Shown: positions 1 through 7,162 of the stretch, in pieces
How the letters are laid out: each line of letters starts with the position of its first letter
How positions within the stretch are numbered: the first letter of the stretch is position 1
Origin: Candidatus Zhuqueibacterota bacterium
Lineage (GTDB): Bacteria > SM23-31
DNA length: 7,162 bases
Direction: 5' to 3'
Assembly: GCA_022562855.1 (NCBI GenBank)
Contig: JADFON010000090.1
Span: 1-7,162 of the forward strand
Notes under the pieces: generated by a model
What the model saw: the letters and a program-made list of their open reading frames with translations, nothing else
What the model was told of the DNA's origin: nothing
The model's database searches: none
Translations under genes and position numbers: made by a program

Positions 1-392
1 AAAAAGAAGGGGCAGGCAATCACTACGTGAGAGGGGGGATTCAGGGGGGTGTCGAAACGGTATTATAAACAAGAATAACATGTACTAAACCTTTATGCAA
101 CAAAGAATTACAGCAATGATCGCGAATTTATACCGGACACTAATGAAACCAATTATAAATTAATTTAGGCTGTCATAGATTAATAATGTTATTTTGTAGG
201 GATAGTTATAAAAAACTAATCTTCACTAAATCGATTGCTTTTTGGCGAGTGGAAAATCATATGACTGATCCTTGGAGGCGCTCTTTTAGGCATCTATTTT
301 TGGTAAAACGTGGCATAATATAGCTAAAAAAAGACTTGGCAGGTTTTCCCATCATGTCACTTAACTTATTGTTTTCAAAGGTTTTTTTACTG
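1..392. other. Gene-free AT-rich flank
   Basis: No convincing coding frame is visible on either strand. The first 60 bases differ from the rest in being purine-rich, with guanine runs at 9-12, 33-38 and 44-49. The remainder is AT-rich. If the half-tRNA at 393-434 is an integration scar, this side is the ordinary chromosomal sequence downstream of the original tRNA, because it follows the tRNA 3' end on the minus strand. No promoter or terminator here is strong enough to call. Confidence 0.5.
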
Positions 393-434
393 TAGCCCTA
401 CAGGATTCGAACCTGTGACCCACGATTATGAGTC
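393..434 (-). pseudogene. 3' half of a tRNA with CAT anticodon; likely element attachment site
   Basis: Read on the minus strand, this is a textbook tRNA 3' half. The anticodon loop CTCATAA (432-426, anticodon CAT) is followed by the 3' anticodon strand TCGTG, a four-base variable loop GGTC, a T arm ACAGG-TTCGAAT-CCTGT with a perfect 5-bp stem, and the 3' acceptor strand AGGGCTA. It resembles elongator tRNA-Met, although tRNA-Ile2 also carries CAT. No CCA is encoded, and the base at the discriminator position is C, which is unusual. The 5' half is absent. Pairing in the anticodon stem holds for the two pairs next to the loop and then stops at position 29 (base 435), beyond which there is no D arm or 5' acceptor strand. 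Tyrosine-recombinase elements that cross over in the anticodon loop leave such a 3' half at one end. On that reading the element lies to the right (from 435) and the chromosome to the left. No integrase or second copy is in the window. Confidence 0.72.
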
Positions 435-793
435 CATTGCTTTTTCAAACATATATTGTCACCATACTGTCAAAATAAATTTGTAATTATTATTAAAAAC
501 AGCTAAACTCAATTCAAAACAATTTAGAGTAATTCAAATATTAAAAATCATGTAACTGTATATCAATAAACAACATACAATCACAATTCATTTTTAATAC
601 ATTGCTTATAAGGATTACAAAATTGACTTGACTCACAGTAATCATTGTAAATACGATGTTTTTAACTTTCCAAAATCATAAAACAAACATGGTGAATTAT
701 TATGCATTGACCCTGGAGATTGAAACAATCTGACAGAAATAATTTTCAATAAAAGATGTATTCTCTTTATCCACAGTCCGCAAAATATATTTA
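435..793. other. Gene-free AT-rich spacer downstream of the nuclease
   Basis: This stretch is very AT-rich and has no supported gene on either strand. It lies between the half-tRNA and the nuclease stop codon, so it would be the terminal non-coding part of an integrated element if the attachment-site reading is right. A small hairpin (AGATTG, loop AAA, CAATCT) sits at 717-731. It has no following T-run on the minus strand, so I do not call it a terminator. Scattered repeats of AATTCAA at about 510-540 look like low-complexity sequence. Confidence 0.5.
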
Positions 794-1507
794 CTACCAC
801 AGTTTCCGGATTTTTGATTTTTCTTTATCAATTTTTTTACCAACCAGCCGTTCCCACAATTTTATGCCTGCGAACTTTTCAACTTGTGACGTCGGGACTA
901 TAAAGGCGTCCAATGATTGATCTGATTTTTTATTTGGAATTACAAACGACCACATATGCAATGTCCCTTTGTTGTTCTCAGCCAAAATAGATTTAAAGTA
1001 TGAGTGCGGTACCGGTATAGAAACATCATTTTTATCTTTTGTGCCTATGCTTTTGACAGGCATGGCAAAATCAAAAATTGGACCGCAAATAACATAAGTT
1101 TCCAATATTTTTGGTTTTAAATTTAAGTTTCTGACTTCACTTTCCAGTTCCCTCCAGATGTCTCTGTTGAAATTAGGGTCCTGAGGAGACATATTGGACA
1201 AAAGGAATGTTTCACTATTTTGCAATTCTGTCTCTCTCTGATTAGCGCTTGCAACGAGATGCCCGCGATCATAACCGGACCCTCTATAATCCACAAGATC
1301 AGCACGGAATATATCCGGAATTCGATAGTCCGGGCGAAAGTTATCAGAACGATCTAACCCAGTACTATCAGGGTCTATAATTTCTAAAGCCCATTTTGCC
1401 TGCCGAAAATAATAGGAATAACCAAGCACATAGTTCCTGTTAAATAATATTTGGTCAGCTGCCGGCATTCCATATCTGGTTTCGCGTCTTAAACTAGGTA
1501 AGTCCAT
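794..1507 (-). CDS. DNA/RNA non-specific endonuclease (EndoG/NucA, beta-beta-alpha-metal family)
   Basis: A complete 237-residue protein. Nucleases of this family cut single- and double-stranded DNA and RNA with one hydrated magnesium ion. The signature DRGH is at residues 80-83, with H83 the expected general base. It is followed by NMSPQ (105-109) and NFNR (112-115), with N114 the expected metal-binding Asn, and E122. The spacings H83-N114 (31) and N114-E122 (8) match the catalytic spacing known for mitochondrial EndoG. The N-terminal part (YGMPAAD...NYVLGYSYYFRQ, from residue 12) has the usual strand that opens the fold. The length is normal for a bare catalytic domain. There is no signal peptide, so the protein seems cytoplasmic or exported by a route not visible here. 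The ATG is well supported by AAGGAG six bases upstream. No NuiA-like inhibitor gene is adjacent. The nearest gene upstream is the ABC-F ATPase, more than 500 bases away, so this is probably a separate transcription unit. The family is certain; the biological role (nutrient, effector or defence nuclease) is not. Confidence 0.93.
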   Translation of the reverse strand: MDLPSLRRETRYGMPAADQILFNRNYVLGYSYYFRQAKWALEIIDPDSTGLDRSDNFRPDYRIPDIFRADLVDYRGSGYDRGHLVASANQRETELQNSETFLLSNMSPQDPNFNRDIWRELESEVRNLNLKPKILETYVICGPIFDFAMPVKSIGTKDKNDVSIPVPHSYFKSILAENNKGTLHMWSFVIPNKKSDQSLDAFIVPTSQVEKFAGIKLWERLVGKKIDKEKSKIRKLW

Positions 1508-1513
1508 TTTTTT

Positions 1514-1519
1514 CTCCTT
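1514..1519 (-). promoter_or_regulatory. Strong Shine-Dalgarno site of the nuclease gene
   Basis: On the minus strand AAGGAG lies six bases before the ATG at 1507-1505, which fixes the start codon. The ABC-F gene further right has no such site. Bacteroidota often do without Shine-Dalgarno sequences, so this strong site may hint at a different source or expression level for the nuclease gene. A poor promoter match (TTGAAA, 15-base spacer, TAAAAT) lies just upstream and is not called. Confidence 0.75.
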
Positions 1520-2026
1520 TTATAATTATTACGGCATTAATATTTATTTTAAAAAAAACTCTAAAATTTCAATCTGCTCAATCGGTATTTTCAACACTTG
1601 CAGAACAGAATAGACGCATTTCCGGGATTCTGTACTGATTTTGCCTCAATTCGTGCGTCAAAGGTTGCTATACTCTCCCGTACAGCCTAACAATTCCTTC
1701 AAAAGCACACGTGAATCAACCGGTATTATTTTTGTAGGACAGAGTAAAGGAAGATACAACATAAAAACGACAAAATACAAGCAGTTATAACAAAAATATT
1801 ATTTTCTAACTGCACATACAGGATTTGTTTACGTTTATACCGGTGGATCGAAATTGAGGCAGGACAAAGGATAAATGTTAATCATCAATCGTAATTTCCT
1901 GATTGATAAATTTCGCTCATTTCGTGTAAGCAAATTCGAAAACAAAGACTTAAGTGGGCATTGATGGAATGATGCAATTTGTTGTGGGTAAATAAGATAG
2001 GGTGTTTTTCTTAAAGTTTCGAATAA
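1520..2026. other. Long intergenic spacer between nuclease and ABC-F genes
   Basis: About 500 bases without an intact gene, apart from the nested inverted repeats annotated separately. On the minus strand a short reading frame from 1645 to a TAA at 1544-1546 ends in VLKIPIEQIEILEFFLK. Another at about 1763-1660 reads MLYLPLLCPTKIIPVDSRV and onward for 34 codons. Both have protein-like composition but no start signal or recognisable family, so they may be debris of a decayed gene or chance. A 7-bp hairpin (ATCAATC 1884-1890 with GATTGAT 1901-1907) is also present; its role is unknown. Confidence 0.4.
1642..1861. repeat. Set of concentric inverted repeats (possible structured RNA or DNA element)
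   Basis: Several inverted repeats nest inside one another. TGCCTCAATTCG (1642-1653) pairs with CGAAATTGAGGCA (1849-1861) with one bulged base. ACCGGTAT (1719-1726) pairs with ATACCGGT (1837-1844). AAACG-ACAAA (1765-1774) pairs with TTTGT...CGTTT (1824-1836) with a three-base bulge. GCAGTTA (1781-1787) pairs with TAACTGC (1807-1813). All are mutually compatible, and two right-hand arms are directly contiguous, so one folded molecule could contain them all. In addition, AGGACA followed by AAAGG occurs at 1736-1750 (with four extra bases) and again at 1861-1870. The region is AT-rich, so some pairing is expected by chance. No known RNA family is recognised. Confidence 0.35.
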
Positions 2027-3835
2027 TTATATTTGACTTTCCAATTTTGAAAGTTCTTCATTAAGTTCTATCCACAGGGTTTCATTTTCTTCAATTTGAC
2101 CCTGTAATTCCCGGAGCTTTACAGCAAGATCTTTTGTGTATGACGCAGGATTAAAACTGAAACGGTGTTCTATCTCTCCTTTTTCTCGCTCTTTGCTTTT
2201 GAAATCGGTTTCAATTATTTTTATTTTGTTTTTTATCTTATTGATCTTTGATTTTATTTTTTTTCTTTGAAGGTACGACACCTTGTTGCCCGAAATAGTT
2301 TGCTCCGTGTTTTCGGAAATTACCGGAGCTTCGGTTTCCATTTTAATTTCCTGCTGCAATGAATACACGTATTCTTCGTACTCTCCCGGGTATAAACTTA
2401 TACGGCTGTCTTTAATGTCTATGATCTTGTTGGCTACGAAATTAACAAATGTACGGTCATGGCTTACAAAAAAAACCGTACCGTTAAATGCTTTCAAAGC
2501 ATTGGCGAACGCTTCTACCGTTTCAAAGTCAAGGTGGTTTGTCGGTTCATCAAGAATAAGAACCGGATTACGGCTCAAAAGCAATCCGGCAAGACATAAT
2601 CTTGCTCTTTCACCTCCACTGAGTATGGAAATGCTTTTTTCGACATCCACGCCTCTAAACAAAAAAGATCCCGCAAGGTCAAGAATTTCCTGTCGCGGCG
2701 TCATGCGGATTGCTTTTGAATCCAGATAGGAATAGACACTTTCTTTAGAATGTAGTTCGGCATATACGTGCTGCGCATAATAAGAGACGTTCAACCCATA
2801 TCCCCAATCATATTTTCCCGACTTTAGCGGCAAACCTCCTGCTATGGTTTTCATAAACGTTGTTTTTCCCTGCCCGTTATCACCCAGAATGGCAACTTTA
2901 TCACCTATATTTACATCTATGTTAATTTCAGATGCAACATTTTTTTCTGGATAACCTATCTGCATATCTCTGCATTTAAGCGCGAATCCTTTTTTTATTT
3001 TAACAGATGGAATACGAATTTTAACAATTTTGAGAGGGTTCTTTATTACGATTCTATTTTTTTCAAGACGTTTGATTTGCTTTTGTTTTGACTGTGCCTG
3101 TCTTGCTTTTGAAGCTTTTGATTTGAAGCGTGTAATAAAGCTTTCGAGGGTTTTTTGCCTCTGCTCAATATTAATGTTAGCCTGGCGTGCAAGTTCCTTT
3201 TTTTCTTCCTTGTATACAAGATATTCTTCAACATTTCCCGGGAACATGGTCATTTTCCCGTTTTCGATCTCAAGCGTACTTTTACATGTTTTCATAAGGA
3301 ATTCTCTGTCATGAGATACAATTATGAATGCGCCGTTATAATCACGTAAAAAAGTTTCAAGCAGTAATAGTGTTCTCAAATCGAGAAAGTTTGTGGGTTC
3401 ATCAAGTATGAGAAAATTCGGTTCGCTCAAAAGCATTGCCGTTAGTTTGACACGGGTTTGAAATCCACCGGAAAGTTTGCCAATGGGCGTTTTATCCAGC
3501 AATTCATTTTTGATGAGAAATTTACCGGCAAGCTTTCCGCATTCCCATTCTTCTTTCCCGGTATGTCTTTGCAAAAAATGAATGACGGTTTCGTCCGGCG
3601 TAAATGGATCGGACTGCTCAAGATAGCTTAATCTAAGAGTGGAACTTTTATCGATAACCCCTGCGTCAGGTTCTATTTCACCGGTGATCATATTGCAAAG
3701 CGTTGATTTTCCGCAACCATTCCTGCCTATCACACCTGTTTTTTGTTTTTCCTGAAGTGTAATACTGGCTTGATCGAACAGTACCTGATGTCCGTAGCAT
3801 TTATCTAATTTGTTGATTTGAATAAGTATCTTCAT
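2027..3835 (-). CDS. ABC-F family ATPase (translation factor type, YheS/YdiF-like architecture)
   Basis: A complete protein of 602 residues from the ATG at 3835. ABC-F proteins are soluble tandem ATPases that bind the ribosomal E site and relieve stalled or drug-bound ribosomes; they have no membrane domain, and none is seen here. Domain 1 has Walker A GRNGCGKST (37-45), Q-loop Q74, signature LSGG (121-124), Walker B with catalytic E146 and switch H175. The inter-domain linker (about 205-270) is charged and helical and contains RFKSKASKARQAQSKQKQ, the P-site tRNA-interaction motif typical of the family. Domain 2 has Walker A GDNGQGKTT (318-326), LSGGE (405-409), catalytic E430 and H459. The C-terminus (about 520-600) is a lysine/glutamate-rich coiled coil, as in YheS and YdiF. 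The domain 1 D-loop reads NFLD while domain 2 has the common NHLD. The frame extends upstream to a TTG at 3898, but that codon overlaps the likely -35 box, and family alignment begins at MKILIQINKLDKCYG. There is no clear Shine-Dalgarno sequence. Family certain; subfamily and any antibiotic-resistance role uncertain. Confidence 0.95.
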   Translation of the reverse strand: MKILIQINKLDKCYGHQVLFDQASITLQEKQKTGVIGRNGCGKSTLCNMITGEIEPDAGVIDKSSTLRLSYLEQSDPFTPDETVIHFLQRHTGKEEWECGKLAGKFLIKNELLDKTPIGKLSGGFQTRVKLTAMLLSEPNFLILDEPTNFLDLRTLLLLETFLRDYNGAFIIVSHDREFLMKTCKSTLEIENGKMTMFPGNVEEYLVYKEEKKELARQANINIEQRQKTLESFITRFKSKASKARQAQSKQKQIKRLEKNRIVIKNPLKIVKIRIPSVKIKKGFALKCRDMQIGYPEKNVASEINIDVNIGDKVAILGDNGQGKTTFMKTIAGGLPLKSGKYDWGYGLNVSYYAQHVYAELHSKESVYSYLDSKAIRMTPRQEILDLAGSFLFRGVDVEKSISILSGGERARLCLAGLLLSRNPVLILDEPTNHLDFETVEAFANALKAFNGTVFFVSHDRTFVNFVANKIIDIKDSRISLYPGEYEEYVYSLQQEIKMETEAPVISENTEQTISGNKVSYLQRKKIKSKINKIKNKIKIIETDFKSKEREKGEIEHRFSFNPASYTKDLAVKLRELQGQIEENETLWIELNEELSKLESQI

Positions 3836-4017
3836 AAGGGTAACAAATTCATTTATAATAAAAGGGAAATAATATACTATAATCCTCTCGTAATTCAAAA
3901 TTGTTATTTCTCACTAACAAATTGTTTAAAACATTGGGATATCAATATATTACACCTAATTATCAGAAAAATAATTCCGGAATATATTTGTCAATTCCAT
4001 TCAACTTAATTAGAGGA
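3836..4017. other. Intergenic region upstream of the ABC-F gene
   Basis: This AT-rich region lies between the AsmA-like stop codon and the ABC-F start and carries the promoter candidate annotated separately. A perfect 10-bp palindrome, ATTCCGGAAT, is at 3974-3983, about 75 bases upstream of the -35 box; it could be an operator half or chance. A plus-strand reading frame through the region overlaps the ABC-F start and looks accidental. No terminator hairpin for the AsmA-like gene is evident. Confidence 0.45.
3871..3898 (-). promoter_or_regulatory. Putative sigma70-type promoter of the ABC-F gene
   Basis: On the minus strand TTGAAT (3898-3893) and TATATT (3876-3871) are separated by 16 bases. 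They match the TTGACA/TATAAT consensus at four and five of six positions. Transcription would begin near 3864 and give a leader of about 29 bases before the ATG at 3835. AT-rich DNA gives such matches by chance, and Bacteroidota use a different consensus, so this is tentative. It is consistent with choosing the internal ATG over the upstream TTG. Confidence 0.3.
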
Positions 4018-5694
4018 TTAAAAAAGAGGCGTTTGCAATGAAATTATTGCGCAGTTGGAGGAGAACTTTTTGTCTCTATTTTGAAGAGTCGTGTCTTTTT
4101 TGAACCAACCAAACTCCGCGTTTAAGATAGCCTTTAAGGTCTGCTTCTCCTTTTTAAAATCTTCACCAATCTTCTGCACATAACTCTTCTTGTCATATTT
4201 TATGATTGGCTCATGAACGGTACCGGTCATTGATAGGAACAACCACATGCCCAACCCGTCATCCTCGATGACTCCAAACTCTTCATTGGCCTTTTTCGCT
4301 TTCTTCGACTTCTTGCTCAACAACTCAGGAAGATATATTTTGAACTTGTAATTGATTTCGTGATCAAAAGTGTGGTCACCAGATACGGTAATGTTCAACA
4401 CTGATGATGCAATCTCCATTCTGGGAATGTGGATATTGCGATCCTTGATCTCAATCTGGTTCTTCAAAGTGGAAAATCGAACATGTTCAAGCTCAGAAAT
4501 AGCGATATAATCTGATAGGGCCAGCAGCGACTTATTGTTGATCAGTTCACCTTTGACAATGGTTATGTCAGCTTTGGTATAGATTTTATCCTCAATAATC
4601 GTAAGATCTTTGTTCCACACGGAGACAAACTGTAGATCTGCTGTGACAATTCCCTTGATATGCGAATCCGTTATATAGTTCTGGCCGAAATTTTCAAAAG
4701 CATAGAACATCTTGGTGATGTTGATGTCCTTTATATCTGCATCACATGATACCAGTAGTTTGCTTCCCGAACCATCTATAAGTCCATTCAGTGTGATCAA
4801 ACCGTCCATAGATCTGAATTTGAGATCACTGGCAATCAACTTTTGATCTTTTAACTTCAATCTCCCCACAATCTCATTTGCATTGAATCTTCGGAAAATC
4901 AACTGTTCTATATCGGTGGTTAGATTGAACTCAATATGATTCGGTAATTCCAGCTCATAAACGGTGTCTGTCTTAGAAGAGGAGGAATAATCTTTTAGCA
5001 ATTCATTCAAATCAATTAGGTCAGAACTTAGCTGTGCATCCACAAAAAGATCCTGATTCTCCATAAGTATAAAGGGAATTACGTTTTGAAAATAGCCATC
5101 CAGAACCAGGTCACTGGATTCCACTTTGATACTCAACTCTTTTACCAAAACATCATTGTCGCTAAGTACAAAGCGACCTTCGCCCACCTCTATTGGAAGC
5201 GAGTACCTCTTACGTTGCATTCTAAGATTCTTTACATCGATGAATCCTTTAACACCCACGTTCCTGATATAATTTCTCTTGTGATCGGTGTAGGCTTTAA
5301 GGGAACCTTTGGTGGATATCTCAAAGCCCACATTCCCTTCAATCACCAACATGGAATCTAAAACTGGCACATTTGAATCTTTCAGATTCTCAAGATCCAA
5401 CTCACCTGCCACTTTGAGATCCAGCTTCATTTTACCGAAATCCCATAGTTTGAAACTTCCATGGAATTCGTCAAATCCTATCTGGGAAGAAAATTTGTAC
5501 ACCTCTACATACTGTTGGTCCTTGCTCCTTGTTCCTTCGTTGTTTTGAGCGTGCTTTGAAGTGTACATCCCGTCAAGATCAATGTGCGTAAATATGAGGT
5601 TTAGTGAATCAATCGTTAGAGAAGCATCATGAGTCTTGAAGTCTACTCTAACCGTGAGCTCCTCTTTACCTCCGAGATCACCGCTGATTGAAAC
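4018..5694 (-). CDS. AsmA-like outer-membrane-biogenesis family protein, C-terminal part (5' end lost)
   Basis: 558 residues of coding sequence ending at TAA (4018-4020). AsmA-family proteins are large, inner-membrane-anchored periplasmic beta-rich proteins implicated in phospholipid transport and outer-membrane homeostasis. The fragment has the family's long runs of alternating hydrophobic and polar residues and ends in the conserved C-terminal region. That region includes RFSTLKNQIEIKDRNIHIPR, SSVLNITVSGDHTFDHEINY and VIEDDGLGMWLFLSMTGTV, a pattern I associate with Bacteroidota AsmA-like proteins. A lysine-rich patch (LLSKKSKKAKKANEE) lies between them. The N-terminal transmembrane anchor and roughly the first third or more of a typical protein are missing. 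Coding character stops at about 5690, where the DNA turns GC-rich. The minus-strand frame runs on open to 7053, but that extension is antisense to the glycosyltransferase-methyltransferase gene and is not protein-like, so I end this gene at the junction. Confidence 0.82.
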   Translation of the reverse strand, partial: VSISGDLGGKEELTVRVDFKTHDASLTIDSLNLIFTHIDLDGMYTSKHAQNNEGTRSKDQQYVEVYKFSSQIGFDEFHGSFKLWDFGKMKLDLKVAGELDLENLKDSNVPVLDSMLVIEGNVGFEISTKGSLKAYTDHKRNYIRNVGVKGFIDVKNLRMQRKRYSLPIEVGEGRFVLSDNDVLVKELSIKVESSDLVLDGYFQNVIPFILMENQDLFVDAQLSSDLIDLNELLKDYSSSSKTDTVYELELPNHIEFNLTTDIEQLIFRRFNANEIVGRLKLKDQKLIASDLKFRSMDGLITLNGLIDGSGSKLLVSCDADIKDINITKMFYAFENFGQNYITDSHIKGIVTADLQFVSVWNKDLTIIEDKIYTKADITIVKGELINNKSLLALSDYIAISELEHVRFSTLKNQIEIKDRNIHIPRMEIASSVLNITVSGDHTFDHEINYKFKIYLPELLSKKSKKAKKANEEFGVIEDDGLGMWLFLSMTGTVHEPIIKYDKKSYVQKIGEDFKKEKQTLKAILNAEFGWFKKDTTLQNRDKKFSSNCAIISLQTPLF

Positions 5695-5705
5695 GATCCC
5701 ACCGA
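5680..5705. other. Chimeric junction between AT-rich and GC-rich DNA
   Basis: To the left, the minus strand codes for an AsmA-like protein that still reads sensibly through SISGDLGGKEEL. To the right, the plus strand codes for a glycosyltransferase that already reads sensibly from TECVVECDPRLVPLFARSFP (from 5701), with an in-frame TGA at 5689-5691 just before. Both genes are therefore cut at their 5' ends at the same point, and base composition and codon use change abruptly here. There is no insertion-sequence end, target duplication or long repeat at the join. An assembly chimera between two organisms is most likely; a real rearrangement cannot be excluded. Confidence 0.75.
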
Positions 5706-7086
5706 ATGCGTCGTCGAATGCGACCCGCGTCTGGTTCCGCTGTTCGCCCGGTCGTTCCCCCTGATGACGGTTGTGCCGAAACCGATCGATCCCCGCGATG
5801 CCGAGTCCCGTTGCGATCTGCAAATCGCGGCGGGAAGCATGCCGCGTTACTGCCGTCGCGATCTCTCCGACTTTCCGCACCGGCGCCGGTTTCTCGTCGC
5901 GGACAAAGTTCGCATCGCGGAATGGAAGGCACGGCTCGCAACGCTGGGTGACGGTTTGAAAGTCGGCATCTCGTGGCAGGGGGGCAACAAACCGGCGATC
6001 CGCAAAAGCCGCTCGACAACGCTCGACCAATGGATGCCGCTGCTGAAAATGCCGGGCATCGACTTCGTCAATCTGCAATACGGGGACTGCACGCAGGAGT
6101 TGGAGGAACTTCGAAACGAATCCGACGTGACAATTTCTCACTGGGAAGAATCCGATCCGTTGCAGGATCTCGACGGATTCGCCGCACAGATTTCCGCGTT
6201 GGATCTGGTGATTTCGATCGACAACTCGACGGTGCATATGGCGGGGGCGTTGGGTGTTCCGGTGTGGACATTGCTGCCGGTCTCTCCGAACTGGCGTTGG
6301 ATGCTCGAGCGCGACGACAGCCCGTGGTACCCGTCGATGCGGCTGTTCCGGCAAACCGAGCCGATGGAATGGGAATCCGTGTTCGCCCGTGTCGCCGACG
6401 AATTGCGAGGATTCCGGAAACCGGCGGACACAACAACCGTTTCCCTCACCAAGCCGGCAGACGATGAAGCCGATACGGAACGACAGAAGTACGAGCAGAT
6501 CTGGAGTCACGATTCTTACCGCGAGAAATCGCCGGGACTGGACAACGCCGACAAGATCAGTCTGATCCCCGAATTGCGAAAGCGAGGTTGCCGTTCGGTC
6601 CTGGATGCCGGTTGCGGCAGCGGGAAACTGATGCAGCGGCTGATGACGGAACATGCCGACGAGTTCGACGTGCACGGGTTCGACATTTCCGGCAACTGTC
6701 TCGATCCGTACTTCGACGGAATGAAGAACGAGGTGCTGACCGTGGGCTGTTTGTGGAATCGCGACGACCTGCCCGGCGAGTACGACGCGGTCATCTGCAC
6801 CGACGTCATGGAACACATTCCCACGGATCGTGTCCCGGCGGTTCTGGAAAATCTGCGGCGATGCACACGGAAGTTCGCCTACTTCGCGATCGCGCTGTTC
6901 CCGGACGGCTTCGGCCCGCTGTTGATCGGCGAACCGCTGCATCTGACGGTCGAACGGCCCGGCTGGTGGTTTGCGAAACTGGGCATCGCGGGGTTTCGCA
7001 TTGAAGGACAGACGGTGGAACAGCACGAAAACGGTCAAGACATGTGGTTGCATGTGTTTGCCGAGGTTGCGACCGAAAACGACTGA
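5692..7086 (+). CDS. Glycosyltransferase (TPR-linked GT9/GT41-like) fused to class I SAM methyltransferase, 5' truncated
   Basis: The frame is open from just after a TGA at 5689-5691 to TGA at 7084-7086; real coding begins at or just before 5701. The ATG at 5764 lies inside the domain and has no Shine-Dalgarno, so it is not the true start. Residues below are counted from that ATG. The first part is the C-terminal half of a GT-B glycosyltransferase: VGISWQGGNK (67-76), FVNLQYGD (101-108), and the nucleotide-sugar-binding stretch SIDNSTVHMAGALGVPVW (151-168), then PNWRWM (175-180). After a linker (about 218-240) comes a Rossmann methyltransferase: motif I VLDAGCGSG (279-287), acidic D307 in FDIS, and DVMEHIP (347-353). 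Such enzymes are expected to add and modify sugars on proteins or surface glycans. The missing upstream part would normally carry the N-terminal GT-B half and often TPR repeats. High-GC codon use is unlike the genes to the left. The next gene follows after 15 bases and is probably in the same operon. Domain calls are firm; substrate is unknown. Confidence 0.88.
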   Translation, partial: NDPTECVVECDPRLVPLFARSFPLMTVVPKPIDPRDAESRCDLQIAAGSMPRYCRRDLSDFPHRRRFLVADKVRIAEWKARLATLGDGLKVGISWQGGNKPAIRKSRSTTLDQWMPLLKMPGIDFVNLQYGDCTQELEELRNESDVTISHWEESDPLQDLDGFAAQISALDLVISIDNSTVHMAGALGVPVWTLLPVSPNWRWMLERDDSPWYPSMRLFRQTEPMEWESVFARVADELRGFRKPADTTTVSLTKPADDEADTERQKYEQIWSHDSYREKSPGLDNADKISLIPELRKRGCRSVLDAGCGSGKLMQRLMTEHADEFDVHGFDISGNCLDPYFDGMKNEVLTVGCLWNRDDLPGEYDAVICTDVMEHIPTDRVPAVLENLRRCTRKFAYFAIALFPDGFGPLLIGEPLHLTVERPGWWFAKLGIAGFRIEGQTVEQHENGQDMWLHVFAEVATEND

Positions 7087-7088
7087 AC

Positions 7089-7100
7089 GGAGGCGCGGAG
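7089..7100 (+). promoter_or_regulatory. Paired Shine-Dalgarno-like sites before the last gene
   Basis: GGAGG at 7089-7093 lies eight bases before the ATG at 7102, and GGAG at 7097-7100 lies seven bases before a second in-frame ATG at 7108. Either could be the start of the downstream gene; the first has the better match. Confidence 0.45.
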
Positions 7101-7101
7101 C

Positions 7102-7162
7102 ATGACGATGACGGGCGGTCGAGTGGCATCGGAACCGGGGATCACACGGTCTTCCGGGGGGT
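7102..7162 (+). CDS. Start of an unidentified gene, cut by the window end
   Basis: Only about 20 codons are visible (MTMTGGRVASEPGITRSSGG). The frame has no stop, begins 15 bases after the glycosyltransferase-methyltransferase stop on the same strand, and has a suitable ribosome-binding site. Its base composition matches the GC-rich neighbour, so it probably belongs to the same operon. Too little is present to name a family. Confidence 0.45.
   Translation, partial: MTMTGGRVASEPGITRSSGG

Follow-up and report, generated by a model that had tools for sequence, protein, structure and literature searches.

What has brought together, at a single point of one contig, two genes that lie head to head and both lack their beginnings? 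The window examined here, that is, the whole stretch of 7,162 nucleotides that was analysed, is one entire contig (C96) of the draft genome bin G000, which comprises 2.51 Mb in 491 contigs and is 79.64% complete and 2.49% contaminated. The sequence-only reading of this DNA had proposed that the contig is misjoined, and the evidence gathered since points strongly the same way: C96 is very probably a chimera, in which library preparation or assembly linked the DNA of two organisms.

The sharp composition break described in that reading has been confirmed by measurement. GC content is about 36.8% for positions 1–5685 and about 60.3% for positions 5711–7162. A one-step GC model places the best split at 5651, with almost equal fits up to approximately 5670 and a log-likelihood gain of 133.8. 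This step is the strongest among 108 sampled contigs of the bin (C96 and 107 other readable contigs, those under ~3 kb being read as N), the next-largest gain being 66.6 and the median about 10.1. The mean GC content of the bin is 42.3%, with a standard deviation of 2.1 points between contigs. Comparison of the tetranucleotide profiles of the two sides, which had been suggested as a check, gave a similar picture: the right-hand part lies farther from the bin mean than all of the same-length bin pieces (455 of 455), and the left-hand part is also at the edge of the distribution (a distance of 0.236, against a maximum of 0.218 among 40 pieces). An abrupt change of composition inside a contig is one of the marks of chimeric contigs. 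Alternatively, the window might belong to one organism of strongly mixed GC content, the truncated genes being natural neighbours, for example pseudogenes at the border of an island. Some natural GC variation does exist in the bin, where contigs range from 36.8 to 46.9%, but none of the 1.45-kb pieces taken from 67 other contigs reaches 60% GC; their maximum, 56.6%, comes from C90, a contig that is itself suspect, and this explanation leaves two head-to-head genes broken at one spot. A single organism of this kind is therefore considered extremely improbable.

The genes on both sides of the break are incomplete. On the low-GC side, the minus-strand frame at 4018–5690 corresponds to the C-terminal part of an AsmA-like gene whose 5′ part is missing at the junction, an assignment made from homologues and from a weak match to the AsmA model (E 1e-6, far under the model cut-off). 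This frame covers the C-terminal ~560 residues; the open frames of homologues have 856–1049 aa, and their upstream third to half is absent from C96. The alignment with one homologue reaches query residue 8 (nt 5688–5686), which pairs with residue 335 of that homologue, so that approximately 330 residues are missing and the AsmA homology stops at about 5686. The relatives are all distant (18–30%), Persicobacter (Bacteroidota) among them. A minus-strand frame does stay open across the junction, from 4018 to 7053 (1,011 aa), and a single long AsmA gene of this extent was considered and rejected: a Pfam search with the entire frame gave no family, and the portion beyond the junction is rich in arginine (14%, versus 2.9% in the AsmA part). 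Because this N-terminal portion is the antisense of the glycosyltransferase gene, the long frame is an illusion.

On the high-GC side, the plus-strand gene at 5704–7086 has lost its 5′ part as well. Its earlier description as a glycosyltransferase gene was correct in part and has been extended: the C-terminal catalytic part of a TPR-type glycosyltransferase precedes a methyltransferase domain (Methyltransf_23, E 3e-11). The frame, which runs from 5692 and is preceded by an in-frame stop at 5689–5691, shows ~50% identity to two homologues from its residue 4 or 6 (nt 5701 or 5707), and the alignments begin at homologue residues 500 and 396. Since they begin so deep in both homologues, an N-terminal part of about 395 residues or more is absent. 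The two breakpoints thus fall within some 20 bases of one another, as had been claimed, and the junction between the composition regimes, a feature assigned to neither strand, is placed at 5686–5707 because the homologies of both genes end there, close to the GC step.

A natural insertion had been expected to leave the other half of at least one gene nearby, and neither missing half has been found. A search of the bin with a full-length AsmA query returned C96 only, and a full-length TPR-glycosyltransferase query found the catalytic half in C96 only and weak matches to the TPR half elsewhere, the bin being 79.6% complete and the queries distant in both searches. Both genes are thus cut at the junction with their other halves missing from this incomplete bin, a further mark of chimeric contigs, and because the window is a complete contig the right-hand part stops at the contig end, 1.46 kb farther on. 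Beyond the bin, the best relatives of the glycosyltransferase are ~50% identical, belong to another phylum, represented by 47 sampled genomes, and lie in loci of 69–70% GC. Scans of named genomes returned no relative of the glycosyltransferase or of the AsmA part, plasmid searches returned distant matches only, and no intact copy of either side of the junction was found at the DNA level.

These observations bear on the possibility of a real rearrangement or transfer in the cell, in which illegitimate recombination would have placed DNA of a high-GC organism within the AsmA gene and destroyed both genes. Such an illegitimate join, uniting DNA from two distant bacteria and observed before decay of the damaged genes had set in, is judged very unlikely. 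Illegitimate recombination can indeed give a flush junction free of repeats, and 5300–6100 is devoid of repeats, direct or inverted, at a minimum length of 12 bases; the other half of the event could also lie hidden beyond the contig end, at a distance of 1.46 kb. However, no integrase, transposase or att-like repeat is present at the junction. More generally, the search for the signs of a mobile element or island border (integrase, transposase, terminal repeats, target duplication) was negative, with no integrase or transposase among the annotated ORFs of the window, and the junction matches neither a tRNA nor any RNA family. A natural insertion normally breaks one gene and would rarely hit a head-to-head pair at one point; here the 5′ parts of both genes are gone. 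The remaining frames, moreover, show no decay in the form of stops, and several more contigs of G000 carry similar breaks in unrelated genes, which counts against a rearrangement in the cell.

In 12 of the 108 contigs, C96 included, the GC content of a terminal segment exceeds that of the contig body by more than 12 points, and nine contigs have a poorer terminal segment. For example, in C120 (L030, 4969–6393) a short-chain dehydrogenase, matching its profile up to position 172 of 195, continues in frame into DprA (TIGR00732, E 3e-68), with a GC break at ~5474 and an increase of GC3 from ~0.45 to ~0.75. This frame is probably a chimera that annotators would call a fusion protein. In C89 (L127, break at ~744), a response regulator without profile positions 1–26 adjoins a tail of 64.7% GC with CBS domains. 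Another example is C59 (L112, break at ~1498), where a sodium:alanine symporter without profile positions 1–131 adjoins a tail of 29% GC that carries a nucleoside diphosphate kinase gene. In C101 (L131, break at ~5979), the reading frame of a TPR protein continues into a high-GC, membrane-protein-like sequence without family match. In C90 (L026, break at ~1659), the frame of a low-GC membrane protein likewise passes into a high-GC stretch unrelated to it, next to a COX15/CtaA gene. This last stretch, which matches no Pfam or NCBIfam model, has been read as the end of a metallo-hydrolase, an unconfirmed assignment. L127, L026, L131 and L112 thus each have a cut or fused gene at the composition break or close to it. 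The tails of C90 and C56 (L054, break at ~8172) have 57–60% GC. Ribosomal RNA was rejected as the source of the high-GC tails, none being present in those of C90, C120, C56, C89 and C101; the start of a 16S gene in C56 sits at the end opposite its high-GC tail.

Not every GC-shifted contig end is a chimera. In C117 (L144, 47–1111), a class I aldolase-type gene is continuous in frame, and this contig was not counted among the chimeras; the GC3 of the gene drops from ~0.7 to 0.34 towards its 3′ end only. Another bin of the same class, G003 (20 contigs), served as a control; there the log-likelihood gain reached at most 30.4, a value that arose from an AT-rich end, and no high-GC tail of the size of that in C96 was found among the 16 contigs listed of this small control. 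The argument from recurrence is accordingly one drawn from a single bin and a control of 20 contigs. The tails carry different genes, which fits unrelated accidents, and a recurring assembly fault is far likelier than a natural rearrangement, in support of the first interpretation of the junction.

The low-GC part of the window has peculiarities of its own. It contains two intact genes on the minus strand, one for a DNA/RNA non-specific endonuclease (794–1507; Pfam Endonuclease_NS, E 5e-43) and one for an ABC-F ATPase (2027–3835; NCBIfam ribo_prot_ABC_F, E 1e-116, above the cut-off). The ABC-F gene is 57% identical to one in a distant genome outside the class of the bin, and none of the five relatives sampled from that class (G001–G005, 63–90% complete) yielded a counterpart, their weak matches being typical of ordinary transporter ATPases. 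As the gene lacks a counterpart in these relatives, the left-hand part may itself be misbinned, or the ABC-F gene may have been transferred; both are leads suggested by the sequence, not established results. The nuclease gene resembles a phage nuclease family. The minus-strand sequence at 391–434 (GACTCATAATCGTGGGTCACAGGTTCGAATCCTGTAGGGCTACA) resembles a CAT-anticodon tRNA gene of which the 3′ half alone is present. Neither ARAGORN nor Rfam reported a tRNA there, and a second copy was not found in the bin; this sequence could be the attachment-site remnant of an integrated element.

With respect to the junction, a chimera accounts for several observations together: both genes have lost their 5′ parts flush with the junction, the GC step is the largest among 108 contigs, the contig end is near, the missing halves were not found in the bin, repeats are lacking, and gene-cutting tails recur. 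A high-GC piece of some 1.46 kb, derived from another organism and carrying the C-terminal portion of the glycosyltransferase–methyltransferase gene, would have been added to the end of a low-GC contig at a library, amplification or assembly step, the join falling inside the AsmA-like gene. We infer that the join arose outside any cell, through laboratory handling or during assembly, and that its sides come from different organisms. Misassembly, yielding chimeric contigs, and mis-binning are the principal computational errors in metagenome-assembled genomes; misassemblies are relatively rare in comparison with mis-binning (PMC8201837), which counts against the chimera. Nevertheless, C96 resembles the chimeric contigs of such genomes in its apparently mixed-origin fragments, its genes cut at the join, its short composition-shifted end and the occurrence of several cases in one bin, and no differing feature has been observed. 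The chimeras produced by multiple displacement amplification are similar in that the join in C96 lies within genes and without long repeats (PMC1855051). In these, however, the joined pieces mostly come from a single genome and are inverted (85% inverted; PMC1855051), whereas the sides of C96 are 23 GC points apart, which points to two genomes, so that an amplification chimera fits less well.

The warning that conclusions on gene neighbourhood are unsafe across this point is reinforced by the recurrent gene-cutting breaks, and it applies to the bin at large: neighbourhoods and fusions near composition breaks in G000 are untrustworthy. Gene callers may report false products in this bin, such as a 1,011-aa protein across the junction of C96 or a dehydrogenase–DprA fusion in C120, and the figures of 79.6% completeness and 2.5% contamination give no hint of chimeric joins. 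Since its two sides almost certainly come from different organisms and were glued in error, the arrangement of genes across position ~5,700 of C96 is considered an ordinary artefact and no real biological feature.
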